Source: Portibacter lacus
GTDB lineage: Bacteria; Bacteroidota; Bacteroidia; Chitinophagales; Saprospiraceae
Length of the DNA: 64,000 bases
Direction: 5' to 3'
Assembly (NCBI RefSeq): GCF_021533215.1
Contig: NZ_JAJNKA010000005.1
Location: 1-64,000 of the forward strand
A program made the position numbers and the translations under genes. This document shows, one piece after another, positions 26,684 to 52,775 of the stretch. Position 1 is the stretch's first letter. Every line of letters starts with the position of its first letter. A model generated the notes under the pieces. The model had not been told where the DNA came from and made no database searches. It saw nothing but the letters and a program-made list of their open reading frames with translations.

Positions 26684-27751
26684 ATGTTAAAACTAGGTCT
26701 GGGGCTTTACAAGAGCCTTCTTAATTCGCAAAATTTCCAATTTGCAAAGCAAACTGGAGCATCACATCTTGTCGTTCAATTAGTTGACTATATGAGCGGC
26801 GGCTCAAATCCCAACTTAGCTAATAATCACCTAAATGGTTGGGGTAAGACAAATAATCAGGAAAAATTCTGGGAATTTGAAGATCTATTAGCGCTGAAAA
26901 AAGAAATCAATGCACATGGTTTAGAATGGGATACGATAGAAAATTTTGATCCTGCACATTGGTATGATATTCTCCTAGATGGACCTGAAAAAGAGAAACA
27001 ACTGGACAACCTAAAGTACATGTTGAAAAACATGGGGAAAGCTGGAATTAGGAATATGGGTTACTATTTTAGTCTCGCTGGAGTATGGGGATGGACTAGC
27101 AAAAATTATGGAAGAGGAAATCCGATGACCGTCGGATATGATGCGAGTGCAATTGATTCTAATGCGCCCATTCCGAATGGTATGGTGTGGAACATGACTT
27201 ATAATGAAAATGCAAGTCCTGGAGTCATAGACTATGTGCCGAGAGAAGAAATGTGGGATCGACTAACATGGTTTCTCGAAAATATTCTGCCCGTTGCAGA
27301 AGAGAATAACATCAGAATGCTCGCACACCCTGACGATCCTCCTATGCCTGAATTAAGAAATACTGGCAGACTGTTTTATACTCAAGATTATTATGAAAAA
27401 CTGTTAGAGATTTCAGATAGTCCGAGCAATGGATTTGAATGTTGCTTAGGAACCATTCAAGAAATGAAGGGCTCGAATGTGTTAGATTTTGTAGACAAAC
27501 AAAGCCGTGATAATAAGATCGGCTACGTTCATTTCAGAAATGTAAAAGGGAAGGTTCCTAACTACAGAGAAGTATTCGTAGATGAAGGAGACATCGACAT
27601 GCCAGAAGTGATTCGAATTCTCAAAAGAAATAATTATGATGGCATCCTTATTCCAGATCACAGCCCAGCTATGAGTTGTGATGCTCCTTGGCATGCGAGT
27701 ATGGCGTATTCTATGGGATATATGAAAGCCTTGATTGAAAATGTTTCATAA
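26684..27751 (+). CDS. uxuA: Mannonate dehydratase, UxuA type
   Basis: A 355-residue cytoplasmic TIM-barrel enzyme converting D-mannonate to 2-keto-3-deoxygluconate with a divalent metal. Family marks: MLAHPDDPP with His215, FECCLGT with Cys254, YVHFRNVKGK with His283, the following FVDEGDIDM, and PDHSP with Asp325. First gene of a four-gene operon; its stop overlaps the next start by one base (TAATG). No uxuB or uxaC is present nearby, so the usual glucuronate source of mannonate is not indicated. Oxidation of mannose by the later operon genes is the better fit here. Confidence 0.9.
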   Translation: MLKLGLGLYKSLLNSQNFQFAKQTGASHLVVQLVDYMSGGSNPNLANNHLNGWGKTNNQEKFWEFEDLLALKKEINAHGLEWDTIENFDPAHWYDILLDGPEKEKQLDNLKYMLKNMGKAGIRNMGYYFSLAGVWGWTSKNYGRGNPMTVGYDASAIDSNAPIPNGMVWNMTYNENASPGVIDYVPREEMWDRLTWFLENILPVAEENNIRMLAHPDDPPMPELRNTGRLFYTQDYYEKLLEISDSPSNGFECCLGTIQEMKGSNVLDFVDKQSRDNKIGYVHFRNVKGKVPNYREVFVDEGDIDMPEVIRILKRNNYDGILIPDHSPAMSCDAPWHASMAYSMGYMKALIENVS

Positions 27752-28761
27752 TGAAGAGAAATGACTGTACGATAAATGACAACTGGACCTATAATGGGAT
27801 GAAGGTTGTATTTATGGAAAATGAATTTTTGAAAATTGGAATTCTCGTCGATCGAGGAAGCGATATATTTCATTTTGAATTCAAGCCTCTTCAGAAGAAT
27901 CTTTTACTGAAATTGGATAAGGATATTCATAATCCGAACGTCGTTTTCTCGCAAATGAGAAATACCAATAACCAATTCGAAGATTACTATTATGGTGGCT
28001 GGCAGGAAATTCTTCCGAACACGGCACCGATGAATTTGCGGGGTGCAGAACTGGGGCAACATGGGGAAGTGTCATTGATTCCATGGAAGTACGCCATTGT
28101 CCAAGATTCACCTGAAGAAGTCTCGCTCAAAGTCTGGACTAGACCATTGAGAATGCCATTACTCATTGAAAAAACGCTAACAATAAAAAAAGGAGAAAGC
28201 AATTTAATTATAGATGAAAAATTGACCAACGAATCTAATACTTCACTTGCCTTCATGTGGGGTCATCATATTGCTTTTGGTCTAGAGTTGTTAGGAAATG
28301 GTGGAAGAATAGAAACGAGTGCTACACAATTCGAAGCTGAAATATTAATGCCTGATCATCGCCTTTTCAAGCCGGGTATAAAACAAGATTGGCCGAAGGT
28401 GTTAGATATAAACGAAAACTTAGTTGATGGAAATACTATCCTTCCTAGCAGTAAACATTTTAGTGATTTAGGGTATTTAAGCGAATTTGAAGGAAGAGCA
28501 TTTTATCGTATTCATACAGATGAAATGGAATTCTCCGTCCACTGGGATAAGGTTATCTTCAAGTCCTTATGGTACTGGCAAGAACGATATGCAAGTCAAG
28601 ATTCTCCTTGGTGGGGTAATGCTTTTGCCATTGCTTTAGAGCCTTGGTCAGCAAAGTGGTTGCCTGATCCGTCAGCACAAGAAATGAAGGATAACTGGCT
28701 TAACATTCCTGAAAACGGAAGCATTTCTACTACATTAACCACTAATTGCCGATTAAAATAA
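27751..28761 (+). CDS. Aldose 1-epimerase-like protein (DUF4432-type)
   Basis: A 336-residue beta-sandwich protein of the galactose-mutarotase superfamily. Seen features are DRGSDIFHFEFKP near the N-terminus, GGWQEILPN, MWGHHIAFG and the ending ALEPWSAKW. Proteins of this type interconvert sugar anomers or bind sugars; in an operon with an SDR dehydrogenase that acts on one anomer, a mutarotase would be useful. It is coupled to uxuA by a one-base overlap and is followed seven bases later by the lactonase gene. Confidence 0.8.
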   Translation: MKRNDCTINDNWTYNGMKVVFMENEFLKIGILVDRGSDIFHFEFKPLQKNLLLKLDKDIHNPNVVFSQMRNTNNQFEDYYYGGWQEILPNTAPMNLRGAELGQHGEVSLIPWKYAIVQDSPEEVSLKVWTRPLRMPLLIEKTLTIKKGESNLIIDEKLTNESNTSLAFMWGHHIAFGLELLGNGGRIETSATQFEAEILMPDHRLFKPGIKQDWPKVLDINENLVDGNTILPSSKHFSDLGYLSEFEGRAFYRIHTDEMEFSVHWDKVIFKSLWYWQERYASQDSPWWGNAFAIALEPWSAKWLPDPSAQEMKDNWLNIPENGSISTTLTTNCRLK

Positions 28762-28768
28762 ACACGAA

Positions 28769-29638
28769 ATGGAGGCAAAACCAATTTTTGACATAAAGCT
28801 CGAGCACGGAGAAGGACCTGTATGGTGCCCAATAGAAGGAAAATTTTATTGTGTAGATTTGCTCAAAGGACACTATTATAAAGTAGATTACCAGACGCAG
28901 GAATCGGAACGGTTTGATGTTGGACAAGCACTCGGTGTGATGGCATTAAGAGCAGAAGGTGGAAGTGTTGTTGCTGTTCGAGATGGCTTTGGTACTTTTG
29001 ATGAAGAGCGTAAAACATTGACCCTTATAAAAAACTCGCCAGAGCGTGAAATCCACGAAACCAGAATGAATGATGGAGCAGTAGATCCTGCTGGTAGATT
29101 TCTTGCGGCGACCATGACCTATGACGGGATGAAACCCGTAGGCAATCTGTATGGTTTGGAATCTGATGACCATTACACTATCCTAGAAAAGAACCTACTT
29201 CTGCCGAATGGTATGGGCTGGAGTCCTGACAATAAGAAGTTTTTCCTCATCGATACGCATGAGAACGCCATGTTTGCTTATGACTATGAGATGACATCCG
29301 GCAAAATCTCTAATAAAACCATCCATATCCAGTGGTCAAAAGAAGAGTATCCAGATGGAATGGCGATTGATTCAGAGGGTGGTTTTTGGGTTGCAATGTG
29401 GATGGGTAGTAAAATTGAACATTATGATTCGGGAGGGAAGAAAATTGAAGAAGTAAAAGTACCCGTATTACATACAACGTCATGCTGCTTCGGAGGAAAG
29501 GATATGAAGACGCTATTGATAACAACTTCTAATCTTAATTTATCAAAAGCAGAGAAAGCAGCAAATCCACTGGCAGGACGAGTTTTCTCAGTTGAAACGG
29601 ATATAAAAGGACAAGTTCAAAAAAGATATAAAGGATAA
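28769..29638 (+). CDS. SMP-30/gluconolactonase-family sugar lactonase
   Basis: A 289-residue six-bladed propeller hydrolase that opens sugar lactones. The metal ligands of the family are recognisable: Glu15 in HGEGPVW, Asn in MNDGAVDPAG, Asn in LLPNGMGWS and Asp in YPDGMAID. No signal peptide, so cytoplasmic. Placed between a mutarotase-like protein and an SDR dehydrogenase, it most likely hydrolyses the lactone made by the latter, giving the acid for the UxuA-type dehydratase. Confidence 0.9.
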   Translation: MEAKPIFDIKLEHGEGPVWCPIEGKFYCVDLLKGHYYKVDYQTQESERFDVGQALGVMALRAEGGSVVAVRDGFGTFDEERKTLTLIKNSPEREIHETRMNDGAVDPAGRFLAATMTYDGMKPVGNLYGLESDDHYTILEKNLLLPNGMGWSPDNKKFFLIDTHENAMFAYDYEMTSGKISNKTIHIQWSKEEYPDGMAIDSEGGFWVAMWMGSKIEHYDSGGKKIEEVKVPVLHTTSCCFGGKDMKTLLITTSNLNLSKAEKAANPLAGRVFSVETDIKGQVQKRYKG

Positions 29639-29644
29639 TATAAC

Positions 29645-30394
29645 ATGGAAAAAAAAGTAATCGTCATCACAGGGGCATCATCGGGAATCGGCCGTTCGTG
29701 CGCCATTTATTTTATTGAAAAAGGTCATTATGTTGTGGGACTTGATGTCAATGAGGCAGCATTAGACGCAGTAAATGTTGAGGACCAATTTACCTTTATG
29801 AAATGTGATGTTTCAAAGGAAGCTGAAGTCAAGAAATGTATTGGAACTACGATTGAAAAATATGGCGATCTCGATATTTTGGTCAATAGTGCTGGCATTC
29901 AACGATATTCTACGGTTACTGAAACGACAGAGGAAGAATGGGACTTAGTGATGAATGTCAATTTGAAAAGTGCCTTCTTATGTGCGAAACATGCTATTCC
30001 TTCTATGCAGAAAAAAGGTCAAGGAGTAGTCGTCAATGTTTCAAGTGTGCAAGCTTATATTACTCAACACAGAGTTGCACCTTATTCTACTTCTAAAACT
30101 GCCATGCTTGGGTTAACTAGAAGTATTGCTGTTGATTATGCACCAGAAATTAGGTGCGTTGCAATTTGTCCAGGTTCTGTCGATACGGCAATGTTACAAG
30201 TAGCGTTTGATCAAGCGGAAGATCGAGATAAAACGTATAATGAAGTTGTAGACATGCATTTAATGAAACGAATCTGTCCACCTTCTGAAGTGGCAGCATT
30301 AATCGGATTCCTTTCAGGAGATGATGCTGGTTCCATCACAGGACAATCCTTTAGAATAGACGGCGGAATCGGGATTTCTATTCCTGGGAATTAA
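29645..30394 (+). CDS. SDR-family sugar dehydrogenase, probably NAD-dependent
   Basis: A 249-residue classical short-chain dehydrogenase: TGASSGIG at 9-16, NSAG near 81, Ser134, Tyr147 and Lys151 catalytic residues (APYSTSK). Asp34 at the end of the second beta strand favours NAD over NADP. Last gene of the four-gene operon. By context it oxidises an aldose at C1 to a lactone; D-mannose is my proposal because the product acid would be the UxuA substrate and two alpha-mannosidases are encoded nearby. Other sugars with the same logic remain possible. Confidence 0.88.
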   Translation: MEKKVIVITGASSGIGRSCAIYFIEKGHYVVGLDVNEAALDAVNVEDQFTFMKCDVSKEAEVKKCIGTTIEKYGDLDILVNSAGIQRYSTVTETTEEEWDLVMNVNLKSAFLCAKHAIPSMQKKGQGVVVNVSSVQAYITQHRVAPYSTSKTAMLGLTRSIAVDYAPEIRCVAICPGSVDTAMLQVAFDQAEDRDKTYNEVVDMHLMKRICPPSEVAALIGFLSGDDAGSITGQSFRIDGGIGISIPGN

Positions 30395-32024: not shown

Positions 32025-32044
32025 AGTCTCCCTTTTTTCTAATT

Positions 32045-32135: not shown

Positions 32136-32985
32136 AGAAACAATTTCATGGTCTCACGTGCAGACTTGTCAGCTCACCAGATGAAGACTATGAATATTGT
32201 GAGGTTCAAAACGATTCTATTTTGCTCAACCGCTTCACATCGATAGGCTCACTGGAGGTGATACTATCGGTGATGCTATCAACTTAAAAAGGTCCAGCGG
32301 ACCGCGTTTGTATGTTTTCTTTTGAACATTAATCACCTATTATAAAAAATTCAATGCCGGTACGCTGTACCTAGTTTCTTCTATGATTTCAATTGTTACA
32401 AACAGGGTCGGTCCTCTGGACCTTATAGAGCTAATACATGATATTAAATCAAAGCACATCGAAAGGCTCACTCCTCCATCAGAAATAATTTCATGGTCTA
32501 ACGTACAGACTTGTCAGCTCACCAGATGAAGACTATGAATATTGTGAGGTTCAAAACGATTCTATTTTGCTCAACCGCTTCACATCGATAGGCTCACTGG
32601 AGGTGATACTATCGGTGATGCTATCAACTTAAAATCCATGCGAACCGCGTTTGTATGTTTTCTTTTGAACATTAATCACCTATAATAAAAAATTCAATGC
32701 CGGTACGCTGTACCTAGTTTCTTCTATGATTTCAATTGTTACAAACAGGGTCGGTCCTCTGGACCTTATAGAGCTAATACATGATATTAAATCAAAGCAC
32801 ATCGAAAGGCTCACTCCTCCATCAGAAATAATTTCATGGTCTAACGTGCAGACTTGTCAGCTCACCAGATGAAGACTATGAATATTGTGAGGTTCAAAAC
32901 GATTCTATTTTGCTCAACCGCTTCACATCGATAGGCTCACTGGAGGTGATACTATCGGTGATGCTATCAACTTAAAACCCATGCG
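32133..32985. repeat. Tandem 344-bp repeat, about 2.5 units, with embedded hairpins
   Basis: Unit A is 32133-32477 (345 bases), unit B 32478-32820 (343 bases) and unit C is partial, from 32821 to about 32985. Copies are nearly identical. Each full unit contains GGTACGCTGTACC (32359, 32702) and GGTCCTCTGGACC (32410, 32753); GGTCCAGCGGACC (32291) is intact only in A. Each unit opens with the ~60-bp element that also occurs near 35070 and 53721. Unit C runs into the last codons of the acetylesterase gene (stop at 32972-32974). No credible gene lies in 32020-32971. Confidence 0.9.
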
Positions 32986-34957
32986 GATCAAACTGATACA
33001 CCCTTCCCTTTGTCAACAAGTCAAAATCATCCGTCCTAAAAGGAAACACAGGCAAACCAAATCCATTCACTAAATTTAGAAATCCTGGATTATCAGACCA
33101 AGCATACCTTACATATTTGGGTTGCGGAACATCTGCCGACCAGACCTTCACGGTGTTATCTGAAATAATTTCAGCATCTGCCCAGTAGAACTTACCATCT
33201 TCACCAGCGATTGCGAATCCCCCAATTTTCTCACTTTCGAACCTTTTATGCAAACGACTTCCATAAGTATTAAGCTCAACTAAAATTTCGTTGCCCTGAA
33301 TGATGTTGCTGATATAAGTTGGACCTTTTTTCAATGGCATACCATAAACATAATGCAAAGCTAAATAAGAAAGACGTCGTCCAACTTCCGCTTTATTCTT
33401 AGGATGAATATTTCCCCCTTCTCCGATATCAATCGCAGTTACAATATCCACATTTTCCATTTCAGAAACTTTAAATTGGGAAGCTCTAAGCTCTGGCCAC
33501 AATTCATCTTTAGGCTCTTCTGTTTCTGCTCTATAATTCGCTAGTTGGACGATGAAAAAAGGGAGTTTCTCATTCTTCCATTTTGTTCTCCAGTCTGCAA
33601 TCATCGCGCTGAGCAGCTTTTCATATTCTTCTCCTCTCTGCTCATTGGCTTCTCCTTGATACCAGATCACTCCTGTAACAGGCAACTGATGAAGCGGAGC
33701 AATACTTCCATTATAAAGCAATGATGGATAGGAAAAAATACTTCCATTCGGATGAACAGGTTTAGGGAATTTTTTACTGTCAATTTTTATTCCCTTCTTA
33801 TATTTCCATTTTCCGTTTAAGATTTTATTTCCCCAGAATGCATTCGTATACATTCCTCCTAGCCCACCGATATCAAAAACCCTCACCGTTAGTTGATTAT
33901 CCTTTTCCTTCAAAAACGACTTCGGAACGATGTAACTCCTAAAGTTTCCGCTTCCAAAACTTCTTCCCACCTCATGTCCATTGACCCAGGTGATGTCATA
34001 ATCGTCGATCTGATTTAACTTAAGAACTAAATCTTCGTTTAGCGATTGCTTCTCTATATCAAATCGTTTTCTAAACCAAAAACTTCCATCGTGGTCTTCT
34101 TCTCCCAAATATTCCCAGAACATAGGAATCTCTGTCTCTTGCCAATCGCTTTCATCTAAATCTTCCTTCCACCATTCTCCTTCCATTCCTGGTCCTTTGT
34201 GGTAATATTTCTTATTCCACTTTGATTCACCAGCTTCAAATTCTGCTTGAAGTGTTTTAAAATCTTTACCAATCGATTCAATTTCACCCGTAACTTCATC
34301 GAACTGAGAAAACGTTTTCAACACATCCACTCCCATCCATGTTTCTATTGAAGTCGCTCCTAGATTGCTACTTATTAAACCGATAGGAACATCTTGAGAT
34401 TTACTCAAATATTGACCGAAAAAATACCCCACCGCACTAAAATTTTTAATGTTTTCTCGGTTAGCTTCTTCCCACATACCATCAGCAATTTCTTCTTGTG
34501 GGAGATAATCTGTAGCGACCTTTACATTTAGCAATCTAATATTCGATTCTGCATCAAATCCGATTTCTTCATCCGTTAAGCCTAGCATTCTAGCGGTATA
34601 TTGCATATTGGATTGCCCAGCACACAACCACAAATCACCAACAACCACATTAGATAGAGTTAGAGATTCCTTCTTTCCCGTTATTGTGAGATCAGCTGCT
34701 TCACCAATCTCCAAGTTCTTCAATATAAATTCAAACTCGCCAGTTTTTCTATTTACTTCGGTCTTTATTTTCGCATCGCGGAAATTCAACGTCAGAAACT
34801 TTTCCTTCTTCACTTTGCCTTGGATATGAATTTCACTATTCCTCGGAAGGACCATGTTAGACCCATAAATTTTAGGAAGGGAAATTTGTGCATTTAGACT
34901 GCTTCCTAAGAAAATTAGGAACACGAGAATTTTGAAATATTTTGACATTGTAAGCAT
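32972..34957 (-). CDS. Sialate O-acetylesterase-like SGNH esterase
   Basis: A 661-residue exported esterase that removes acetyl groups from sugars. ATG codons at 34957 and 34948 both suit the signal peptide (ending LNAQ). SGNH marks: LCAGQSNMQY with the nucleophile Ser, GVIWYQGEANE, and the catalytic His in EGGNIHPKNK. A beta-galactosidase-like jelly roll is inserted (WFRKRFDIE to NQLTVRVFD), as in the Bacteroidota members. In this locus it may deacetylate an acetylated mannose-containing glycan. The last codons lie inside the tandem repeat unit C. Confidence 0.9.
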   Translation of the reverse strand: MLTMSKYFKILVFLIFLGSSLNAQISLPKIYGSNMVLPRNSEIHIQGKVKKEKFLTLNFRDAKIKTEVNRKTGEFEFILKNLEIGEAADLTITGKKESLTLSNVVVGDLWLCAGQSNMQYTARMLGLTDEEIGFDAESNIRLLNVKVATDYLPQEEIADGMWEEANRENIKNFSAVGYFFGQYLSKSQDVPIGLISSNLGATSIETWMGVDVLKTFSQFDEVTGEIESIGKDFKTLQAEFEAGESKWNKKYYHKGPGMEGEWWKEDLDESDWQETEIPMFWEYLGEEDHDGSFWFRKRFDIEKQSLNEDLVLKLNQIDDYDITWVNGHEVGRSFGSGNFRSYIVPKSFLKEKDNQLTVRVFDIGGLGGMYTNAFWGNKILNGKWKYKKGIKIDSKKFPKPVHPNGSIFSYPSLLYNGSIAPLHQLPVTGVIWYQGEANEQRGEEYEKLLSAMIADWRTKWKNEKLPFFIVQLANYRAETEEPKDELWPELRASQFKVSEMENVDIVTAIDIGEGGNIHPKNKAEVGRRLSYLALHYVYGMPLKKGPTYISNIIQGNEILVELNTYGSRLHKRFESEKIGGFAIAGEDGKFYWADAEIISDNTVKVWSADVPQPKYVRYAWSDNPGFLNLVNGFGLPVFPFRTDDFDLLTKGRVYQFDPHGF

Positions 34958-40967: not shown

Positions 40968-40983
40968 GTATGTATGGACATAC
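40968..40983. promoter_or_regulatory. Operator-like inverted repeat GTATGT-ATGG-ACATAC
   Basis: Perfect six-base arms with a four-base spacer, just before the GntR regulator's likely start codon at 40988. Its GT...AC ends are in keeping with GntR/HutC operators (nGTnTAnACn type), so autoregulation is plausible. It spans the alternative ATG at 40970, which argues for the later start. Confidence 0.5.
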
Positions 40984-40987
40984 GGAC

Positions 40988-41719
40988 ATGGATTTAAAAA
41001 TTGAACACGATAGTAAAATACCGCTCTACTATCAAGTGGAAACATTGCTTAGAAAGCTCATTACACTTCCAAAGTATCAGAATGGAGAACTGCTACCGAA
41101 CGAAGTGGACCTTTCTAAAAGACTCGGCATTTCTAGAAGTACAACAAGACAAGCTATTAAAAATCTTGTGAACGAAAACCTACTTGAACGTAAGAAGGGA
41201 GTCGGAACAAGAGTTTCAAAACAGCCAACCATTTCACACCTTAGCAACTGGTTAAGTTTTACGAAAGAAATGAATGCCAAGGGGATAGACGTCATCAACT
41301 ACGAATTAGAAGTTGGTGACGTTATATCAAATGAAGAAGTCGCTAATGCGCTCAAGATTACACAAGGAAGACACGTATTAAAACTAAGAAGACTGAGGGG
41401 CACGTCCCAAAAACCTGCAGTCCTTACCACTTCTTGGTTTCATCCTAGAATTGATCTTTCAGAAGATGACGATTTCAACTTGCCTCTTTACGAGCTCTTG
41501 GACAAAAAGTACAATACCTTAGTCCACTTCTCTCAAGAAAAAATAAAGGCCGAAAAAGCCAATGCTGTTCTTGCAGACAAACTCAATATTGAAATTGGAG
41601 ATCCTGTTTTGTCTAGATCTAGAATTGTTTCAGACCAAGGAAAACGGGTCGTCGAATACAACAAGACATACTACCGAGCTGATAGTTTTACTTACTTCAT
41701 AGAATTAAAGAGAGAATGA
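40988..41719 (+). CDS. GntR/HutC-family transcriptional regulator with UTRA domain
   Basis: A 243-residue regulator: winged-helix DNA-binding domain (residues about 1-75, with IPLYYQVE and LSKRLGISRSTTRQAIKNL) and a C-terminal UTRA ligand-binding domain (about 95-240) that usually senses a sugar phosphate or similar metabolite. An ATG six codons upstream (40970) is possible. The stop overlaps the SusC start by four bases, so it is the first gene of the SusC/D operon. Most Bacteroidota glycan loci use hybrid two-component, SusR or ECF/anti-sigma control, so a GntR lead regulator is less common. Confidence 0.9.
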   Translation: MDLKIEHDSKIPLYYQVETLLRKLITLPKYQNGELLPNEVDLSKRLGISRSTTRQAIKNLVNENLLERKKGVGTRVSKQPTISHLSNWLSFTKEMNAKGIDVINYELEVGDVISNEEVANALKITQGRHVLKLRRLRGTSQKPAVLTTSWFHPRIDLSEDDDFNLPLYELLDKKYNTLVHFSQEKIKAEKANAVLADKLNIEIGDPVLSRSRIVSDQGKRVVEYNKTYYRADSFTYFIELKRE

Positions 41720-44700: not shown

Positions 44701-44886
44701 AGCAAAATAAACCTACAACGATGTAGAGTATATGCTAATGTTTCGAATCTGTGGACTTTCACTAAATATTCAGGCTATGATCCAGAAGTATTTGCATTCG
44801 GACAAAGTAGTCTACTGCAAGGAATAGATTATGGAGGATATCCATTATCACGAACTTTTCAAGGCGGAATACAAGTAACATTTTGA
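41716..44886 (+). CDS. SusC-like TonB-dependent outer-membrane receptor
   Basis: A 1056-residue glycan importer. After the signal peptide (ending VTGQ, about residue 39) comes a carboxypeptidase-regulatory-like domain (IEGKVTSANTGEELIGVNVF), the LDEVVVVAYGTVKKSDLTGS junction, a plug domain (IRIRGTSSINAGNEPLYVIDG, ILKDASATALYGSRGANGVVLI) and a 22-strand barrel ending in FQGGIQVTF. It pairs with the SusD-like lipoprotein encoded five bases later to take up oligosaccharides, here presumably mannose-containing, using TonB energy. Confidence 0.95.
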   Translation: MMLYKNFSFLTHNLYLNASFRSLFLFLVLAFSATIVTGQDVLNIEGKVTSANTGEELIGVNVFSNTTSGTITDFNGNFEISLKAGDTLKFSYIGYTNYNVPVLNSDFLNIQLSEQSSVLDEVVVVAYGTVKKSDLTGSVSSISADDIQKAHATSVDQALQGRAAGVQVTQVSGRPGGETSIRIRGTSSINAGNEPLYVIDGMLMNSDNGQVNVGAAAGSSLNGLSAINPADIESIEILKDASATALYGSRGANGVVLITTKKGGEGRNNISFDSYFGVQKISKKLDLLNGEEFANYINEYNREEGFPVDVRYIIPEEIGEGTDWQEAILRSAAIQSYQLGLTSGSKTTSYAISGGYFNQEGIIINSNFERYNFRVNLENNFTQRLKVGANVGLSHITSNGVLTGSQGTGTLLPGATVSAVLFQPNLAVLNKNGPGGYTFQDDRGRNIGNPVADALETDNISLNSRVIGSMFANYKILDNLSLKASLGVDGFSVKENRYVPNFLKRTEPNNGEAVVGTVDGVSWLTELTLNYNKNIGKRHNIDALAGYSIQGFNSERLFAFALDFQDNRTGYHSLSSALNPQPPATGESEWGILSYFGRANYILDDKYLLTLTGRLDGSSKFGKESKYGFFPSLSVAYKLHKEPFIQNLGLFSTLKVRMSYGTIGNQEIASYTSLATVGPAGQGTFTNSESYLGFQPLRFPNPGLRWERTNQADIGIDMEFMEGRIGIVLDGYMKNTNDLLLNTPIPTTSGFSSYLSNIGKLRNTGVELGINSHNTTGAFIWDTNANISVNRNEILALVDDNDIPVPGVLQVPTGWSFLRVGQPLGTFFGLKSDGLFQSDEEAQQAAVLAGQNAEAGDRKYVDWNGRDAEGNLTNTPDGKISEADRQVLGKAAPNFIWSMTNTFEYKNFDLSIFVNGSHGNKMVNAYLFEIGTLQGETNVLTSYWENRWTPENPNNFYPKVAPSERNVFSDAQIEDASFIRIKNVGLGYTIPESIGSKINLQRCRVYANVSNLWTFTKYSGYDPEVFAFGQSSLLQGIDYGGYPLSRTFQGGIQVTF

Positions 44887-44891
44887 ACATC

Positions 44892-46385
44892 ATGAAAAGA
44901 ACACACATATATATTATCGCAAGCTTTTTCCTTTTATTCGGCATGAATTCTTGTACGGATATTCTAGTAGAAGATCCACAAGATCAGATTTTTGTCGATA
45001 ATTATTTCGAGACAGAGAACGATGCTATTTCGGCAGTGAATTCCATTTACGCCATCTTGAATTCTACTAGTACACCGCCTACTTTCGGAGGTGTATATCA
45101 TAGTAGTTATTGGGTTGCAAGTGGTCTAGCAAGTGATGAAATGGAAAACAGATTCGTGGGCGTTCTAGAATATGATCAATTAGAAAATTTCACACATAAT
45201 CCAGTGAATGGAACGCTTTATGACCTCTGGCAGAATTGCTATAAGGGGATTAACAATGCGAATTTTGCCATTAATGGTATTCCTGATGTTTCCATGAACG
45301 AGGCTAGAAAAGCAAGTTTGCTAGGAGAAGCTAGATTCCTGAGAGGTCTGTTGTACTTTGAGTTAGTAAGATTATTTGGTGAAGTGCCATTATTTATAGA
45401 TACAGAGCCTCCATTATTTCCATCGAAAGCCAGCGTTAGCGAAGTATACGAACAAATTAAAGCAGATTTGACATTTGCTTCAGAAAATACATTTGCGGAA
45501 CATGATAGAGGCGATGGATTAGGTCGTGCAACTTCTGGTGCTGCGAAATCCTTGTTGGCCAAAGTTCACTTAACCATCGGAGAATATGCAGCGTGTATTG
45601 CCTTATGCGATGAAGTATTGGATTCGGGGCAATATGAACTTTGGGAAGATTTTGCAGATGCATTCAGGATAGCAAATGAAAATGGCAAAGAATCTATTTT
45701 TAATATTGGTTTCGGCGATGCAAATGGTTCTATTTCTTTCTGGGAAGTAGGTCAATTCAATGTCCGATTACTCCCTGCTCAATTGAAAGAACAAATTACC
45801 GGTGTAAATGCCCAAGGATGGCAAGTCGCAACTCAAGATCTATTCGATTCATACGACCCGAATGATCGAAGACGAGAAGTTACTTTAATGGATAAGGTAT
45901 TTGCCCTAGATGGAAGAGTTTTATCCATCGAACCACACATCAGAAAATATTGGGATCAAGAATCAGAGCCGAATGGTGGAAACACCGAAAACGATTTTCC
46001 TTACTTGAGATTATCTGACATTTACCTCATGAAAGCTGAAGCCATTAACGAGTTAAATAACGGACCTAATGCGGAAGCTTATGATGCCATTAATACCATT
46101 AGAAAAAGAGCACGATTCAATGGAGAAATAACCCTTGATGTGCTTCCTGACTTGGAAGGATTATCCTATGATTCTTTCAAAACGGCGCTTTTAAATGAAA
46201 GACGCTGGGAATTCACTGGAGAGGGAAAGAGATGGTTCGATCTCGTCCGGTTTAATAAGTTAGAAGAAACCGTGAAAGCAGCAAAACCTGAAGCTCAAGT
46301 AAGTGACTTTCACAAATTATTCCCGATTCCACAAGAAGAGTTAGACTTGAATAAAAATTTACTTCCACAAAATACAGGCTATTAA
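44892..46385 (+). CDS. SusD/RagB-like outer-membrane glycan-binding lipoprotein
   Basis: A 497-residue lipoprotein (lipobox MNSC) that caps the SusC barrel and binds glycan. An upstream TTG at 44883 overlapping the susC stop is a poorer start than this ATG. Family marks are the N-terminal YFETENDAISAVNSIYAIL, the TPR-like LLGEARFLRGLLYFELVRLFGEVPL, YLRLSDIYLMKAEAINEL, and ERRWEFTGEGKRWFDLVRF, ending in LFPIPQEELDLN. One base separates it from the ROK kinase gene. Confidence 0.95.
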   Translation: MKRTHIYIIASFFLLFGMNSCTDILVEDPQDQIFVDNYFETENDAISAVNSIYAILNSTSTPPTFGGVYHSSYWVASGLASDEMENRFVGVLEYDQLENFTHNPVNGTLYDLWQNCYKGINNANFAINGIPDVSMNEARKASLLGEARFLRGLLYFELVRLFGEVPLFIDTEPPLFPSKASVSEVYEQIKADLTFASENTFAEHDRGDGLGRATSGAAKSLLAKVHLTIGEYAACIALCDEVLDSGQYELWEDFADAFRIANENGKESIFNIGFGDANGSISFWEVGQFNVRLLPAQLKEQITGVNAQGWQVATQDLFDSYDPNDRRREVTLMDKVFALDGRVLSIEPHIRKYWDQESEPNGGNTENDFPYLRLSDIYLMKAEAINELNNGPNAEAYDAINTIRKRARFNGEITLDVLPDLEGLSYDSFKTALLNERRWEFTGEGKRWFDLVRFNKLEETVKAAKPEAQVSDFHKLFPIPQEELDLNKNLLPQNTGY

Positions 46386-46386
46386 G

Positions 46387-47328
46387 ATGAAGTACAGCAT
46401 TTGCTTTGATATAGGAGGAACAAGAATTAAGTTGGGCGTTATGTCTAATGCTGAGCTAATGCACCACGAATTAGTGGCTATAGATGATAATTCATCTTTG
46501 AAAACTGTTCTGGAGTTAATCAAAGAAAAAGTACAAGTCATACAGAAAATGTATGAGCATGACCAGCTTATTGCTATCGGAATGTCCTTACCGTGCTTCG
46601 TAGACTCTGATAAAAACAAAATTTTATCTAATTACGTAAAATACACGGATGCATCAGACATTGACCTAAACGAATGGTGTTTGCAAAATTTTGGCGTTCC
46701 TATATTTCTCGAAAATGATGCGAAAGCAGCCTTAATGGGTGAAGCATTTCATGGTGCAGGCAAAGGATATCAGGACTTAGTCATGGTCACTTTCGGCACT
46801 GGAATTGGTTCCGCGGTTATGCTTAATGGCCAACTCCTAAAAGGCAAAGACTATTTCGCAGGCAATCTAATCGGTCATTCTATAATAGACTTCAATGGCG
46901 ATCAGTGCAATTGTGGAGGAGAAGGATGCTTGGAATCTGTTGCTTCTTCGTGGGCACTAACTGAAAAAGTTGAAAATAGTGCTGCTAACATTGGCCTAAA
47001 AGATAAACCTTCTAAGATCGATTACAAGTACATCTTCGATGAAGAAAAGATGGGCAATCATGCCTTCGCCTACATTCTAGATGAATCATTGGATGCTTGG
47101 GGAAAAATGATGATAAACCTAATTCTTGCATACAATCCAGAGTGCATTGTGTGCGCAGGAGGCATTATGAACCAAGGGGAAGTCATCTTGAACAGCTTTA
47201 GAAAAACAATAGATCAGCATGGGTGGATCAGCTCAGAAAATGTAATTCTAAAAACAGCAGAAAACACAGATTTCGCCGCATTGTACGGCTTATCAGAAAT
47301 TATAAATCAAAAAATAAAAAGAGGATAG
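46387..47328 (+). CDS. ROK-family sugar kinase, probably manno- or glucokinase
   Basis: A 313-residue cytoplasmic kinase that phosphorylates a hexose with ATP. ATP-binding DIGGTRIKLG at 8-17, the catalytic region with LENDAKAALMGE, FGTGIGSAV, and the ROK zinc site His (in IGHSIIDF) plus CNCGGEGCLES. Placed between SusD and a mannose-6-phosphate isomerase homologue, mannose is the most likely substrate. The regulator ROK type is excluded by the lack of a DNA-binding domain. Confidence 0.9.
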   Translation: MKYSICFDIGGTRIKLGVMSNAELMHHELVAIDDNSSLKTVLELIKEKVQVIQKMYEHDQLIAIGMSLPCFVDSDKNKILSNYVKYTDASDIDLNEWCLQNFGVPIFLENDAKAALMGEAFHGAGKGYQDLVMVTFGTGIGSAVMLNGQLLKGKDYFAGNLIGHSIIDFNGDQCNCGGEGCLESVASSWALTEKVENSAANIGLKDKPSKIDYKYIFDEEKMGNHAFAYILDESLDAWGKMMINLILAYNPECIVCAGGIMNQGEVILNSFRKTIDQHGWISSENVILKTAENTDFAALYGLSEIINQKIKRG

Positions 47329-47332
47329 AGTG

Positions 47333-49081
47333 ATGGAACCGAATTACGATAAATTTCCGGTGGTTAAAATAGATGGCAATGAGAACGTTCAAGTTGGATG
47401 GGAGAATATTAGCAATCTAATAGAAGCAAAAATTGACGACGGTGCTAAACACATCGTTGTGGAATGCTATCATGGAGTAAATGAAAAACCTTTAGAAAAC
47501 ATCCTTAAGACTAAGTTCCAAGACGCTCTGATCATTAATTCCAGCAGTGTCTACAAAACGCAGGAAGAGATAGATGCTATTACTTTTCCAGATGTAACTG
47601 ATGATCGAATATTTGGACGGATAACGAATCTGAAAATCAAAGACCTATTCGACGATTTCAAGTTGGAAATTGCCAGATTGAAAATTGAAAAAACATCGGG
47701 TCCGGTCATCGTTTTTGGGATAGGAGCTTCTGTTATTCTGGAAGATCCACTTCTATTTATCTATGTAGATATGGCGCGCTGGGAAATCCAGATGCGAATG
47801 AGAAAAGGAGAAGTTTCGAATATCGGTACAGATAATTACATTTTAGATGTCGTTCGTCGTTATAAGCGTGCATTTTTTGTGGACTGGCGGATCTGCGATG
47901 CAATTAAAAAAGAAACCTTCGCGCACTGGGATTTTGTCATAGATGCCAACAAGGAAGAAGAGCCGAAGATCATACCGAAGGCAACCCTAGACAAGGCTTT
48001 AGGTCAAACGGTCAGTCAGCCATTTAGGCTTGTCCCATTCTTCGATCCAGGTCCGTGGGGCGGTCAGTGGATGAGAGAAGTTATCGGATTAAGCAAAGAC
48101 GAACCTAATTTTGCCTGGGGTTTCGATTGTGTTCCTGAAGAAAATAGTGTGCTGTTTCAGATCGGTGACGAAACACTTGAATTTCCAGCATCGAACCTCG
48201 TTTTCTTTCAGACCACAAGCTTGCTTGGAGAGATGGTAGAAAAGCGTTTCGGAGCGGAGTTTCCTATCCGATTTGACTTCCTCGATACCATGGATGGAGG
48301 AAACTTAAGCTTGCAAGTTCATCCTTCTGATGAATACATTAAAGCGGAATTCAATATGGATTATACCCAGGATGAAAGTTATTATATCCTGGATGCTGAA
48401 GACGACGGAATTGTTTACTTGGGCTTAAAAGAAGGTATAAATCCTGATGAGATGATAGCCGCTTTAAATGATGCGCAGCAACCAGGAAATACGTTTGATG
48501 CAGATAAATATACGGCAACTTGGCCAGCGAAAAAACATGACCATTTCTTAATTCCTGCAGGAACCGTTCATTGCTCAGCAAAGAATACTATGGTCCTAGA
48601 GATCAGTGCGACGCCATACATTTTCACATTTAAACTATGGGACTGGGACAGACTAGGATTGGATGGTCTACCGCGACCGATTAATATAGAGCGTGGAAGC
48701 AAAAACATAAAGTGGGATAGAGATGAAAAATGGGTAAAAGAAAATTTAATTGACCAAGTAGAAGTGCTTGAATCTGGTGATGGCTATAAATCAGAAAAAA
48801 CAGGTCTGCACGAAAGTGAATTTATAGAAACGGTAAGAACTTGGTTTTCCAAGAAAGTTACTCACCATACAAACGGAAATCTGAATGTCTTGAACCTCGT
48901 CCAAGGAAAAGAAGCCATTGTAGAAAGTCCTACGAATCAATTTCAACCCTTCATCATCCACTTTGCTGAGACATTCGTCGTTCCGGCAGCTGTAGGAGAA
49001 TACACGATTACACCACATGGACCATCCGAAGGTAGCGAATGTGCTACCATTAAGGCATATGTTAAAAATGAAAGCAAATGA
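47333..49081 (+). CDS. manA: Type I mannose-6-phosphate isomerase with extra N-terminal domain
   Basis: A 582-residue protein, roughly twice the length of a short class I isomerase. The C-terminal part (about 225-582) has the cupin metal site: Gln and His of LQVHPSDEY, Glu of DESYYIL, and His of IPAGTVHCSAKN. The first ~215 residues are additional; they have alternating beta/alpha segments (HIVVECYHGV, PVIVFGIGASVIL, RAFFVDWRICDAI) that recall P-loop nucleoside kinases but no Walker A motif is present. ATG at 47333 is preferred over GTG at 47330. It should turn the ROK product into fructose 6-phosphate. The stop overlaps the MFS start by four bases. Confidence 0.85.
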   Translation: MEPNYDKFPVVKIDGNENVQVGWENISNLIEAKIDDGAKHIVVECYHGVNEKPLENILKTKFQDALIINSSSVYKTQEEIDAITFPDVTDDRIFGRITNLKIKDLFDDFKLEIARLKIEKTSGPVIVFGIGASVILEDPLLFIYVDMARWEIQMRMRKGEVSNIGTDNYILDVVRRYKRAFFVDWRICDAIKKETFAHWDFVIDANKEEEPKIIPKATLDKALGQTVSQPFRLVPFFDPGPWGGQWMREVIGLSKDEPNFAWGFDCVPEENSVLFQIGDETLEFPASNLVFFQTTSLLGEMVEKRFGAEFPIRFDFLDTMDGGNLSLQVHPSDEYIKAEFNMDYTQDESYYILDAEDDGIVYLGLKEGINPDEMIAALNDAQQPGNTFDADKYTATWPAKKHDHFLIPAGTVHCSAKNTMVLEISATPYIFTFKLWDWDRLGLDGLPRPINIERGSKNIKWDRDEKWVKENLIDQVEVLESGDGYKSEKTGLHESEFIETVRTWFSKKVTHHTNGNLNVLNLVQGKEAIVESPTNQFQPFIIHFAETFVVPAAVGEYTITPHGPSEGSECATIKAYVKNESK

Positions 49082-50424
49082 AAAGCGAAGAATACAATAT
49101 CAAGTATGTCTATTTACTAACCGCTAGTGCCGCCTTAGGTGGCTTGCTTTTCGGGTATGATACCGCAGTAATTTCAGGAGCGATCGGTTTTCTTCAGACC
49201 AAGTTCGAACTCACTTCTGCCATGAAAGGTTGGGCTGCATCGAGTGCGATCGTGGGATGTATCATCGGAGCGATGCTTGCAGGGACTTTAAGTGATCTGT
49301 ATGGTCGAAAGAAAATATTACTACTAACTGCGGCCTTATTTTTTATATCTGCGATAGGAAGTGCCATTCCACAAAACCTTAGCTTTTTTGTCGTTGCGAG
49401 AATTATCGGAGGAATAGGTGTCGGAGCGGCTTCCATGCTAGCGCCATTATATATTACAGAGCTTGCTCCAGCTTCGATTAGAGGCAAATTAGTTTCCCTT
49501 TACCAACTAGCGATTGTACTAGGTATTCTTATTATTTTCTTTGTCAATTTATTAATACAAAACCTAGGAGATGAAGTATGGAATGTCGAGCAAGGGTGGA
49601 GGTATATGTTTGGTTCTGAAATCTTGCCTGCAGCACTATTTTTTATTGCGTTAATATTCGTGCCTGAAAGTCCAAGATGGCTTACTAAAAAAGGAAAAGA
49701 AACAGAAGCGCTTGCCATCTTAGCCAAGGTGAATAATCCATCAAAAGCGGATGAGATCATGGCTGAAATCAAAGAAACATTAAACGAAGAGAAAGGAACG
49801 ATTAAAGAATTGTTTTCTGGCAAATTCAGACCTGCCATCATCGTGGGAATCGTACTTGCCATCATTTCTCAAGTTCAAGGCATTAATGCAATCATGTACT
49901 ATGCACCAGAAATATTTAAAGAAATTGGAGCCACTTCGGACTCCGCGTTTACCCAGACGCTTATTATCGGAGTGATTAACACCCTTTTCACTTTTGTAGC
50001 AATTAGAATGGTAGACAAAGTTGGCCGTAAAGCATTATTGTTATACGGCGGCTTAGGTATGTTTATTAGCCTATTTGCAGTAGGTCTAGCCTTTTTCCTT
50101 GAATGGAAAGGGCTGGGCTTGCTATTTTTTATCCTGTGTTACATTGCTTGTTTTGCATTCTCATTTGGACCAGTTACTTGGGTGGTTATTTCAGAAATCT
50201 TCCCGAACAAACTGAGAGGAGTAGCAATGTCAATTGCAACCTTTTCGCTTTGGGTAGCGGTGTATGTAGTAACACAATTATTCCCTATTCTATTAGAATC
50301 AATGGGGCCAGCATTCACATTCTGGATATTCGCAGCGATGGCGCTGTTAGGAATGATTTTCACCTATACGAAAGTTCCTGAAACCAAAGGTAAATCACTA
50401 GAAGAGATCGAGAAAGCATGGTAA
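49078..50424 (+). CDS. MFS sugar porter (XylE/GLUT type)
   Basis: A 448-residue, 12-helix inner-membrane proton-coupled sugar importer. Sugar-porter marks are all present: GYDTAVISGAIGF in helix 1, DLYGRKK between helices 2 and 3, PESPRWL after helix 6, QVQGINAIMYYAPEIF in helix 7, and PETKGKSLEEIE at the end. It likely carries the monosaccharide released by the mannosidases to the ROK kinase or to the oxidative pathway. It overlaps manA by four bases and the GH92 gene by seven. Confidence 0.93.
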   Translation: MKSEEYNIKYVYLLTASAALGGLLFGYDTAVISGAIGFLQTKFELTSAMKGWAASSAIVGCIIGAMLAGTLSDLYGRKKILLLTAALFFISAIGSAIPQNLSFFVVARIIGGIGVGAASMLAPLYITELAPASIRGKLVSLYQLAIVLGILIIFFVNLLIQNLGDEVWNVEQGWRYMFGSEILPAALFFIALIFVPESPRWLTKKGKETEALAILAKVNNPSKADEIMAEIKETLNEEKGTIKELFSGKFRPAIIVGIVLAIISQVQGINAIMYYAPEIFKEIGATSDSAFTQTLIIGVINTLFTFVAIRMVDKVGRKALLLYGGLGMFISLFAVGLAFFLEWKGLGLLFFILCYIACFAFSFGPVTWVVISEIFPNKLRGVAMSIATFSLWVAVYVVTQLFPILLESMGPAFTFWIFAAMALLGMIFTYTKVPETKGKSLEEIEKAW

Positions 50425-52775
50425 AATTCAATATCATAAAATCACTGTTAATTGTTGTTGTTGGTATCATCAGCACCAGCGTCCATGGCCAAAAAGATCC
50501 TGTAGATTATGTAGATCCTCTTTCCGGAACCCATGATTCTAGGTGGATGATGTTTCCAGGAGCTGCGATGCCTTTCGGTATGGTGAAACTCAGTCCTGAT
50601 AATGAAAGGAGAGGATGGAAAGCAGGATATGAATACGATGTAGAAAATATTAGCGGATTTAGCCATATCCATTCTTGGACGATGGCGGGATTATTAACCA
50701 TGCCTACGAATGGGCCACTTAAGGTTATCCCTGGCGAAGAATATAATCCAGATCTTGGATACCGATCTAGGTTTTCTCATGATAACGAAGTTGCAAGTCC
50801 AGGATATTACTCCGTTCAGTTAGATGACTATGATATTAAAGCAGAATTAACTTCCACAACTAGAGCTGGCTTCCAACGATACACCTTTAATAATGTGGAT
50901 TCAGCACGAATCCTTATAGATCTACAGATAGACTCGGAATACAGTTATGAATTGTTTAATGGTGTAATAACTAAAGTCAGTGATACAGAGATAGAAGGAT
51001 TTTCAATGCACCAAAGTCTAAGAGGCGCGGGTTACAATGAGTATACTCTTCATTGGGTAATGAAATTCAGCAAACCTTTTACTTCTATGAATGGCTGGAC
51101 CAGAGACGGTGTGGTTAGAAATATTGAAGAAATTTTTTCTGGATGGGATCATTCAGATATCGGTGCCTTTGTCAATTTTGATTTAGAAGAAGGAGATGAA
51201 GTGTTGGTTCAGACTGGGATTTCATTGGTTAGCAAAGAACAAGCAAGGTTAAATCTTACTAAAGAAATCATTGAACCTTATGGTTGGGATTTTGACGCAG
51301 TAAGAAGCAATGCAAGAACTACTTGGAATGACTTATTGAAAACGATCGAAGTTGAATCTTCTGAAGAGGTCAATCTAAAGAAATTCTATACCAACATGTA
51401 CAGATCGTATGTAGGTAGAACGATATGGAATGATGTCAATGGTAAGTATGTGGACATGTACGAAAAAGTCCAACAATTAGAAGATCCTGATTCTCCAATA
51501 TACGGAGGTGATGCATTCTGGAATACATTCTGGAATCTAAATCAACTTTGGACATTGGCAACGCCAGATATTGCGAATAAATGGGTTAAGTCCCTCTTAG
51601 AGATATATGATAAAGGAGGTTGGCTTCCGAAAGGACCGACAGGAATTGAATATTCTAGTATCATGGTTGCCTCTCATGAAGTGCCGCTTATTGTAAGCGC
51701 ATATCAAAAAGGAATCAGAAATTATGATGTCGAAAAAGCCTATGAAGCTATAAAGCATGTTCAGACGACACCAGGAATTGCGCATAAAGCAGGTGGATTC
51801 GTGGGTAATCGGCAACTCGAAGAATACATGAAATATGGCTATGTTCCGTATGGTGCTGGGCCATCATCTAACACTTTAGAGTATGCTTTCGACGATTGGA
51901 CAGTCAGTCAAATGGCCAAATCCATGGGGAAAATCGAGGACTACAAATATTTTAAAGGTCGAGCCAATAACTATCGAAATCTATGGGATTCAACGAGACT
52001 ATATATGAATCTGAAAATGGAAGACGGAAGCTTCAAACCCGATTTTAGTCCGTTCTGCTGTACTACATTTCTAGGTTCAGGATGGTGTGAAGGAAACGCA
52101 TGGCAATATTCCTGGTTTGTTCCTCACGATTTAAAAGGGCTGATCTCTTTAATGGGTGTGGACACTTTTACACAGAGGTTAGAACTAGGATTCGAAAAAT
52201 CAAAACCTTGGCGCTTTAACTCAGAATCTACGCATGATAATAGCTTGTTTTCTATGGGTGTGCTTCCGATCAATCATGGAAACCAACCCAATATGCAAGC
52301 GGCCTATCTTTTCAACTATGCAAGAAAACCCTGGTTAACGCAAAAATGGTCTAGAGAGATCATGGATGTCTACTATGGCTTAGGTCCTAAAGAAGGCTGG
52401 CCTGGAGATGAAGATCAAGGGCAGATGGGCGCTTGGTATGTGATGAGTTCTATGGGTTTATTTCAAATGAGAGGTGGAGCTGCAGTACGTCCTGTGTATG
52501 AAATAGGAAGTCCAGTGTTTGATAAGGTGACGATTCATCTAGATGAACGTTATTATACTGGAAAAACCTTTGTCATAGAAACCATTAATAATTCAAAAGA
52601 GAATAAATATATACAATCGGCAAAGTTAAATGGAGCAGTGTTAAACAAGCCTTGGTTTTATCATGATGAATTGGTAAAAGGTGGGAAACTGACCATTGTA
52701 ATGGGACCTAATCCTAATAAAGAATGGGGGTCTTGTGAAACCTGTCCTCCACCATCTATGTCGAGTGAAGAATAA
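50418..52775 (+). CDS. GH92 alpha-mannosidase, secreted
   Basis: A 785-residue exported, calcium-dependent exo-alpha-mannosidase (signal peptide 1-24, VHGQ end). GH92 marks: VDYVDPLSGT and FPGAAMPFGMVKLSPD at the N-terminal beta-sandwich, then the (alpha/alpha)6 catalytic domain with EGNAWQYSWFVPHD (candidate general acid Glu) and GDEDQGQMGAWYVMSSMG (acidic base/metal residues; GDED replaces the common GNDD). GH92 enzymes trim alpha-1,2, 1,3 or 1,4 linked mannose from N-glycans and yeast-type mannans. Last catalytic gene of the SusC/D operon. Confidence 0.95.
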   Translation: MVKFNIIKSLLIVVVGIISTSVHGQKDPVDYVDPLSGTHDSRWMMFPGAAMPFGMVKLSPDNERRGWKAGYEYDVENISGFSHIHSWTMAGLLTMPTNGPLKVIPGEEYNPDLGYRSRFSHDNEVASPGYYSVQLDDYDIKAELTSTTRAGFQRYTFNNVDSARILIDLQIDSEYSYELFNGVITKVSDTEIEGFSMHQSLRGAGYNEYTLHWVMKFSKPFTSMNGWTRDGVVRNIEEIFSGWDHSDIGAFVNFDLEEGDEVLVQTGISLVSKEQARLNLTKEIIEPYGWDFDAVRSNARTTWNDLLKTIEVESSEEVNLKKFYTNMYRSYVGRTIWNDVNGKYVDMYEKVQQLEDPDSPIYGGDAFWNTFWNLNQLWTLATPDIANKWVKSLLEIYDKGGWLPKGPTGIEYSSIMVASHEVPLIVSAYQKGIRNYDVEKAYEAIKHVQTTPGIAHKAGGFVGNRQLEEYMKYGYVPYGAGPSSNTLEYAFDDWTVSQMAKSMGKIEDYKYFKGRANNYRNLWDSTRLYMNLKMEDGSFKPDFSPFCCTTFLGSGWCEGNAWQYSWFVPHDLKGLISLMGVDTFTQRLELGFEKSKPWRFNSESTHDNSLFSMGVLPINHGNQPNMQAAYLFNYARKPWLTQKWSREIMDVYYGLGPKEGWPGDEDQGQMGAWYVMSSMGLFQMRGGAAVRPVYEIGSPVFDKVTIHLDERYYTGKTFVIETINNSKENKYIQSAKLNGAVLNKPWFYHDELVKGGKLTIVMGPNPNKEWGSCETCPPPSMSSEE

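Follow-up and report, generated by a model that had tools for sequence, protein, structure and literature searches.

The stretch of DNA analysed here, 64,000 nt long and called the window below, is the start of contig C39 in the 6.3 Mb genome of Portibacter lacus (genome G000). Within an alpha-mannoside locus it carries a four-gene operon (26684-30394) encoding a UxuA-like dehydratase, a DUF4432 protein, an SMP-30/SGL lactonase and a short-chain dehydrogenase/reductase (SDR); all four gene types, named for this operon in the first-pass annotation, were found by Pfam profiles. The same annotation had seen in the dehydrogenase, the lactonase and the dehydratase an oxidation cassette, and this idea is well supported, because the protein families, their conserved linkage and the presence of different lactonase subfamilies in the same slot all point to a module that would lead from an aldose, through its lactone and aldonate, to a 2-keto-3-deoxyaldonate. 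We propose that this operon gives the alpha-mannoside locus a non-phosphorylating cassette for aldose oxidation and that the sugar is most likely D-mannose, a reading to which we give about an even chance.

In this proposal the DUF4432 protein would equilibrate the anomers of the imported sugar, the SDR, which resembles the enzyme AldT, would oxidise the aldose with NAD(P) to an aldonolactone, the SMP-30 protein would open the lactone to the aldonate, and the UxuA-like enzyme would dehydrate the latter to a 2-keto-3-deoxyaldonate. For D-mannose released by the GH38 and GH92 enzymes of the locus, the flux would pass through mannonate to 2-keto-3-deoxygluconate (KDG), which a KDG-kinase-like protein and a 2-keto-3-deoxy-6-phosphogluconate (KDPG) aldolase, both encoded elsewhere, would convert to pyruvate and glyceraldehyde-3-phosphate.

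Proposed oxidative cassette and its conservation

The four genes lie on the forward strand with intergenic gaps of -1, 7 and 6 bases. The first (26684..27751) encodes a dehydratase of 355 aa that belongs to a distinct UxuA-like subfamily (PF03786, about 162-164 bits, cut-off 23.7), the second (27751..28761) the DUF4432 protein of 336 aa (PF14486, 43.8 bits, 1.8e-11), the third (28769..29638) the SMP-30/SGL lactonase of 289 aa (PF08450, 245 bits, 8.9e-73) and the fourth (29645..30394) the SDR, a probable aldose 1-dehydrogenase (PF13561/PF00106) whose best PDB matches are 3vtz (2e-54) and 2dtd (3.6e-49).

A search of 148 genomes (G numbers) found orthologues of the UxuA-like protein at about 60-69% identity in four other genomes, and further matches at 27-37% identity, many of them of partial length. 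The cassette genes are kept together in all four relatives, so their linkage is not due to chance. The gene order is the same in three of them, and in G050 the SDR gene is inverted and placed ahead of the UxuA-like gene.

The UxuA-like family was also scanned more widely, the best 80 of 402 relatives being used as loci (L numbers), many with flanks that stop at a contig end. A quick tree places 28 rows, the window included, on one side of a branch with support of 100 (clade A), and 27 of these have a DUF4432 gene nearby. RraA-like genes accompany 25 rows, of which 24 fall in a separate group (clade B), with other phyla outside. L050 and L054 were assigned to clade A on DUF4432 alone, and like L093 and L095 they are represented by no UxuA-like row in either the tree or the 77-row alignment discussed below.

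DUF4432 is present in 28 of the 29 clade A loci, and the protein is probably an aldose mutarotase; the window's copy gave no PDB match at E 1. The SMP-30 protein aligns with regucalcin (3g4e, E 1.9e-42), the metal-site motifs included, at residues that we take to be metal-binding. Two SGL types share the lactonase slot in clade A: that of the window, seen in the five loci closest to it, and a different subfamily, seen in 17. Of the latter, three members were compared with the window protein by blastp and gave no match at 1e-5, though both types belong to PF08450. In clade B the slot holds a PF10282 lactonase (one member tested).

The link to alpha-mannosidases is seen in both clades. A GH38, GH92 or GH76 gene was found in the flanks of 13/29 clade A loci, 24/28 clade B loci and 1/23 others, and in 0/17 canonical uxuA regions, a control taken from the window's relatives and mostly from genomes other than those of the test loci. 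GH38 and GH92 are D-mannosidase families. GH92 occurs anywhere in the genome in 27 of the 29 clade A genomes, many of which are metagenome-assembled genomes (MAGs), and a SASA gene is found in the flank of 11/29 clade A loci against 0/17 controls. L068 with L161 displays most of the locus in a continuous piece, with SDR, UxuA-like, DUF4432, SGL, DUF4185, SASA, GntR, SusC and SusD genes and, after SusD, those for ROK, ManA-like, MFS and GH92 proteins. Clade B loci with alpha-mannosidases (e.g. L086, L106, L114) also contain RraA-like, CoA-transferase III, enoyl-CoA hydratase and SBP-like genes.

Probable aldose dehydrogenase and UxuA-like dehydratase

The SDR is placed with mannose-oxidising enzymes. 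A quick, midpoint-drawn tree of 71 SDRs, few of the others being characterised, unites two Thermoplasma enzymes (3vtz and 2dtd, which we take to be of the AldT type) with 22 cassette SDRs (support 94); the 4-dehydrogenase-like, D-mannonate-oxidoreductase-like, KduD and clade B SDRs fall outside this group. The cassette SDRs are 37-42% identical to AldT, that of the window 37.8%. Against NF005007, the NCBIfam aldose dehydrogenase family, the window SDR scores 265.8 bits, under the cut-off of 341 bits, yet this is the best of 230 families. AldT is described as oxidising D-mannose, with the dehydrogenase and dehydratase genes adjacent in Thermoplasmatales (PMC6901390).

The first gene of the operon probably encodes an aldonate (mannonate) dehydratase. 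We call the protein UxuA-like and not UxuA itself because it falls below both curated NCBIfam cut-offs (TIGR00695, 106.1 vs 199.55 bits; NF003027, 131.1 vs 191 bits); the product of the genome's own canonical uxuA, located in a uronate cluster on contig C41, reaches 430 bits. Residues H215, C254, H283, R285, D325 and H326 (window numbering) are common to the window protein and canonical UxuA, and the metal motifs (HPDDPP, Cys, HxR and PDH positions) are kept in 77/77 aligned UxuA-like rows, an alignment that leaves out the second L073 copy and four relatives of 27-28%. A stretch found in 18/18 canonical sequences is missing from all 77 rows, and many canonical invariant positions differ. The substrates of UxuA have the manno configuration.

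PF03786 membership would also agree with a second mannonate dehydratase of the hexuronate pathway, the other cassette genes being incidental. Outside clades A and B, D-mannonate oxidoreductase-like SDR genes indeed adjoin or lie near the UxuA-like gene in L073, L089 and L099, their products having 46-50% identity to the genome's own D-mannonate oxidoreductase and that of L089 scoring 352 against the family cut-off of 281. We consider such a role for the window's gene highly improbable, however. The window has no UxaC-like or UxuB-like gene, as the first-pass annotation had remarked: the genome's own glucuronate isomerases and its tagaturonate-reductase-like enzyme (a mannitol-dehydrogenase-family reductase encoded on C38 and closest to tagaturonate reductase) match no window ORF at 1e-5, and the sole match of the own SDR-type D-mannonate oxidoreductase is the cassette SDR, at 30%. 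The genome has two separate uronate clusters. That on C41 includes, besides canonical uxuA, the D-mannonate oxidoreductase, a glucuronate isomerase, KduI, a near-KduD SDR and a DctP protein; the second, on C38, has a glucuronate isomerase, the tagaturonate reductase match and a galactarate/altronate dehydratase-family protein. A mutarotase and a lactonase have no place in the hexuronate pathway, and this role was rejected as the best reading on account of the separate clusters and of a cassette SDR that groups with AldT and not with D-mannonate oxidoreductase-like SDRs.

Lower branch of the proposed pathway

The first-pass annotation had placed KDG kinase and aldolase outside the window, and the genome look-up agrees with it: a KDG-kinase-like PfkB gene and a KDPG/KHG aldolase gene stand in tandem at G000:C42:168303-169973, after the genes for GAPDH and PGK. 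The aldolase is above the PF01081 cut-off, and the PfkB protein is under every NCBIfam KDG kinase cut-off. KDG-kinase-like and KDPG/KHG aldolase genes are close to the UxuA-like gene in L083, L089, L096 and L108, and a KDPG aldolase above cut-off is present in 22/29 clade A genomes.

Other relatives combine the cassette genes with a fumarylacetoacetate hydrolase (FAA hydrolase, FAAH) and an SDR that we label 4-dehydrogenase (SDR4DH), a name given, like that of the fucose-type cluster on contig C2 of the window's genome, on family and gene content. Three clade A flanks (L047, L048 and L064) hold an FAA hydrolase gene, beside SDRs with 58-59% identity to one in the C2 cluster. The cassette of G056 (L038) is likewise flanked by this pair. 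In G161 (L166) a cassette-type SDR gene (80% to that of L052) stands on one side of the pair and GH38, DUF4185 and SASA genes on the other, the UxuA-like gene of G161 being on another contig (L057). Not counted among these five are L162 (G003), where the pair is about 5 kb from GH92 at a contig end, and L059, where SDR4DH alone adjoins the UxuA-like gene.

An FAAH relative was found in 26/29 clade A genomes. Its mere presence in a genome was dropped as evidence, since 8 of 20 FAAH regions (19 genomes, G163 twice) have their own enolase-type or UxaA-like dehydratase beside the FAAH/4-dehydrogenase genes, as a separate cluster, and only pairs found with cassette genes were counted. In the other 12 regions, some cut by contig ends, no such dehydratase was found against the reference set. 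Among the scanned window proteins there was no FAA hydrolase, and the best one of the genome is on C2. The cluster there, at about G000:C2 10060-15110 (L133 5061-10111), comprises genes for a RhaM-type mutarotase, an SDR, an amidohydrolase, FAAH, a second SDR and an enolase-superfamily dehydratase, and resembles a Route III deoxysugar pathway.

The pairs found with cassette genes raise the question of an ATP-free mannose path beside the phosphorylating one. The cassette would make KDG; the 4-dehydrogenase and FAAH would yield pyruvate and glycerate from it by way of 2,4-diketo-3-deoxygluconate. The 4-dehydrogenase for 2-keto-3-deoxy-L-fuconate (L-KDF) is described as oxidising D-KDG too, with a kcat/Km 105-fold below that for L-KDF (PMC11199699). 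Route III is possible for KDG; as the path actually used for mannose here we find it quite unlikely. If true, mannose would have a Route III of its own, with a dehydratase of the UxuA type.

Substrate of the cassette

That mannose is the sugar oxidised, as the first-pass annotation had supposed, is supported only in part. The grouping of the SDR with AldT, the conserved metal motifs of the dehydratase, the alpha-mannosidase link in two clades against 0/17 controls, the D-mannonate oxidoreductase-like SDR genes near the UxuA-like gene in L073, L089 and L099 and, for the lower branch, the kinase-like and aldolase genes of the genome speak in its favour; the ROK/ManA path, the tracking of the cassette with DUF4185 and the 4-dehydrogenase/FAAH pair of some relatives do not.

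The observations that weigh against mannose are of several kinds. A ROK kinase and a ManA-like isomerase lie within the same locus and recur with it, and a second mannose path would therefore be redundant; both catabolic paths are present in loci such as L071 and L068/L161. The most frequent neighbour of the cassette is DUF4185, found in 20/29 clade A flanks, above any mannosidase, and in none of clade B, the other loci or the controls. In 12 clade A genomes, among them nine whose flank has no DUF4185, a search of the entire genome gave a relative in 12/12, only distant ones in G148 and G149. Close DUF4185 proteins (best E <=1e-150) occur in 5/5 cassette genomes and in 1/143 others (G022), by a search model built partly on the own locus and on G003, G032 and G050 contigs, which it thus favours, and with an E cut chosen afterwards. 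At E 1e-20 the figures are 5/5 and 7/143, the weaker matches being in G001, G014, G089, G117, G129 and G141. GH92 at no less than 59% identity behaves alike, occurring in 4/5 cassette genomes (not G003) and also in G022, which carries the locus in two pieces and in which no cassette was found. Fisher tests (1.1e-8 for close DUF4185, 1.3e-6 for GH92 at this identity) are descriptive only, as the relatives are non-independent and the cuts were chosen afterwards.

Some residues and neighbours point the same way. The residue after the NAGI motif is Glu in AldT and 3vtz, and in AldT-type enzymes it presumably reads the C2 hydroxyl, i.e. recognises mannose; it is Gln in 19/22 cassette SDRs (window included), Asn in two and Leu in one. 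The dehydratase differs at two positions (window numbering). Clade A has Tyr at 128, in place of the Asn shared by clade B, the remaining rows and canonical UxuA; at 137 it has Trp, which also occurs in about 57% of those remaining rows, against Arg in clade B and canonical UxuA. UxuA-like genes stand near RhaM-type mutarotases in L085 and L123, which argues for other substrates within the family. As for the lower branch, KDG kinase and KDPG aldolase genes are found in 0/29 clade A flanks, and their frequency in clade B (3/28) does not exceed that of the canonical uxuA regions (3 and 2 of 17). In 7/29 clade A genomes the search for KDPG aldolase gave nothing or only matches under the cut-off, a weak point because many of the genomes are MAGs. 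Moreover the five relatives described above have the 4-dehydrogenase/FAAH pair, and not kinase and aldolase, with cassette genes, a branch that would suit KDG and other sugars alike. From all these observations the cassette may act on a sugar other than mannose.

The main rival explanation is accordingly that a second sugar of the glycan is freed by the DUF4185 enzymes and oxidised by the cassette, with mannose passing through ROK and ManA; we judge this somewhat unlikely. D-arabinose is the obvious candidate because the described DUF4185/GH183 enzymes are endo-D-arabinofuranases, which have two catalytic Asp (PMC10115798). Its 2-keto-3-deoxypentonate would be degraded via the 4-dehydrogenase and FAA hydrolase to pyruvate and glycolate. 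This would explain the DUF4185 counts and the coexistence of two catabolic paths in one locus. Two Asp columns (D64 and D90) are invariant in 35/35 DUF4185 sequences, aligned without a characterised enzyme, and the pairs of L038, L047, L048, L064 and L166 would suit 2-keto-3-deoxy-D-pentonate (D-KDP), which the 4-dehydrogenase mentioned above prefers to D-KDG, with a kcat/Km about 8.5-fold higher (our ratio from Table 1 of PMC11199699). Nevertheless, a DUF2961/GH172 exo-D-arabinofuranosidase was not found in 24/30 genomes, the own genome included, and the D-arabinan locus of D. gadei has GH172 together with a fucose isomerase (no search aimed at the isomerase was made). As D-arabinonate dehydratases, PMC6336799 names enzymes of the enolase or UxaA/GarD types, which act on acids with that C2-C4 configuration, and it is dehydratases of such types that accompany FAAH in the eight separate clusters. 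Clade B, moreover, has mannosidases yet DUF4185 in 0/28. D-arabinose as the first choice was thus given up and kept as the main rival, weakened by the missing GH172 and by the known D-arabinonate dehydratase families.

The natural substrate could also be another manno-configured aldose, e.g. 6-deoxy-D-mannose, D-lyxose or a modified mannose, with the UxuA mechanism unchanged. Such a sugar would account for the UxuA and AldT kinship alongside a separate ROK/ManA path and the Tyr128 of clade A, and the 6-deoxy acid derived from L-fucose is known to be degraded by an FAA-hydrolase branch (PMC11199699). No enzyme of the locus indicates a sugar of this kind, and we find it unlikely.

Relation to known systems

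Bacterial mannose use is usually drawn through mannose-6-phosphate. Proposals for the oxidative use of mannose by way of a mannonate dehydratase already exist for Thermoplasma and for a haloarchaeon, and those that we found concern archaea only. In a literature search made mostly on titles and the beginnings of abstracts, no paper appeared on mannose oxidation by a mutarotase, a lactonase and a UxuA-like enzyme in Bacteroidota.

The route proposed for Thermoplasma acidophilum resembles the one suggested here in that an AldT-type gene adjoins a mannonate dehydratase gene and mannose is converted through mannonate to KDG. It differs in being archaeal, in a lactone that hydrolyses spontaneously and in the cleavage of KDG by a KDG aldolase, and the parts of that article dealing with the route mention no mutarotase or lactonase (PMC6901390). 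The ManD of this archaeon is compared here by its role. Natronoglomus mannanivorans is predicted to use mannonate dehydratase genes located within a mannanase cluster, together with KDG kinase and KDPG aldolase genes; this is a haloarchaeal beta-mannan cluster (GH5, GH26, GH2), a prediction, and the sections concerned describe no dehydrogenase-lactonase cassette (PMC10963439).

Route III for L-fucose and pentoses shares the dehydrogenase, the dehydratase and the 2-keto-3-deoxyacid with the cassette, as well as the 4-dehydrogenase/hydrolase pair of the five relatives. Its dehydratases, however, are described as enolase or UxaA/GarD types (PMC6336799), and FAA hydrolase is missing from the scanned window proteins. 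The D-arabinan locus PUL42 of D. gadei likewise has DUF4185/GH183 enzymes in a Bacteroidota glycan locus (PMC10115798); it has GH172 and a fucose isomerase, whereas the window locus has GH38, GH92 and the oxidative cassette, with no GH172 found in the genome.

The cassette is kept across several Bacteroidota families, and its enzymes can be used to ask if bacteria, too, have the route proposed for archaea. Through it one may also approach the target of loci in which alpha-mannosidases are combined with DUF4185 (GH183-family) enzymes.

Other genes of the locus

The GH38, GH92, SusC/D, MFS, ROK and ManA-like genes listed in the first-pass annotation are all present (by Pfam, and the ManA-like one by a PDB match). 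Three DUF4185-type genes and a SASA esterase had been missed. Two of the former overlap and are divergent from the operon, 55 bases away, on the reverse strand: the gene at 24284..25495 encodes a DUF4185 (GH183 family) protein (PF13810, 58.2 bits, 1e-15, cut-off 39.5) with a weak match to the endo-alpha-D-arabinanase 8hhv (E 1.7e-5), and that at 25486..26628 a DUF5005/DUF4185-type protein (PF16396, 1.4e-22; PF13810, 33.6 bits, under the cut-off of 39.5). The SASA carbohydrate esterase, which has a galactose-binding-like domain, is encoded on the same strand (32972..34957; PF03629, 9e-23).

The genes that follow, up to the lipocalin-like one, are on the forward strand. The third DUF4185 (GH183 family) gene (35155..36348; PF13810, 57.1 bits, 2.2e-15, cut-off 39.5) is beside that of the GH38 alpha-mannosidase-like protein (36382..39717; PF01074, 7e-13; PF07748, 3.4e-6), which looks secreted. 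The protein adjoining GH38 (39684..40655) has no Pfam match above cut-off. A distant relative of it (25%) stands beside GH38 in G032 (L034), weakly similar proteins (24-29%, over short stretches) occur near GH38 or the cassette SDR in L059, L061, L064 and L065, and the counterpart in L060, in a like position, has hardly any similarity.

A GntR/UTRA regulator follows (40970..41719; PF07702, 2.9e-26; PF00392, 1.8e-15), then a SusC-type TonB-dependent receptor (41716..44886; PF07715, PF00593), a SusD-type protein (44883..46385; PF07980, 3.6e-34) and the ROK sugar kinase (46387..47328; PF00480, 3.4e-52). The ManA-like isomerase (47330..49081) has an extra N-terminal part; its residues 229-455 match ManA of B. 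subtilis (1qwr, E 2.8e-13), and no Pfam match was obtained for it at 1e-3. The MFS sugar porter (49078..50424; PF00083, 1.8e-131) precedes the GH92 alpha-mannosidase, secreted by its look (50418..52775; PF07971, 6.1e-152). Directly after GH92 comes a lipocalin-like protein that recurs in these loci (52823..53632; PF13648, 3.6e-5); in L152 and L154 an FG-GAP-type protein is placed between the two. A check for a shared operator found no 8-mer or longer word common to the 55-base gap of the cassette, the GntR gap and the SASA/DUF4185 gap.

The spacer at 32020-32971 contains exact direct repeats of 163 bases at offset 343, 129 at 345 and 128 at 688, perhaps three copies of one unit. Peptidase_S74 (endosialidase-chaperone) proteins at 19634-21268 and 30409-32019 flank the operon region, one of them with YadA-head repeats. 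Further upstream, 9564-12638 encodes a large protein with ThuA, glucose/sorbosone dehydrogenase, PKD, cytochrome c and CBM6 parts, possibly a periplasmic sugar oxidase, and 2450-5488 a protein of 1012 aa with a TMEM260-like protein O-mannosyltransferase domain.

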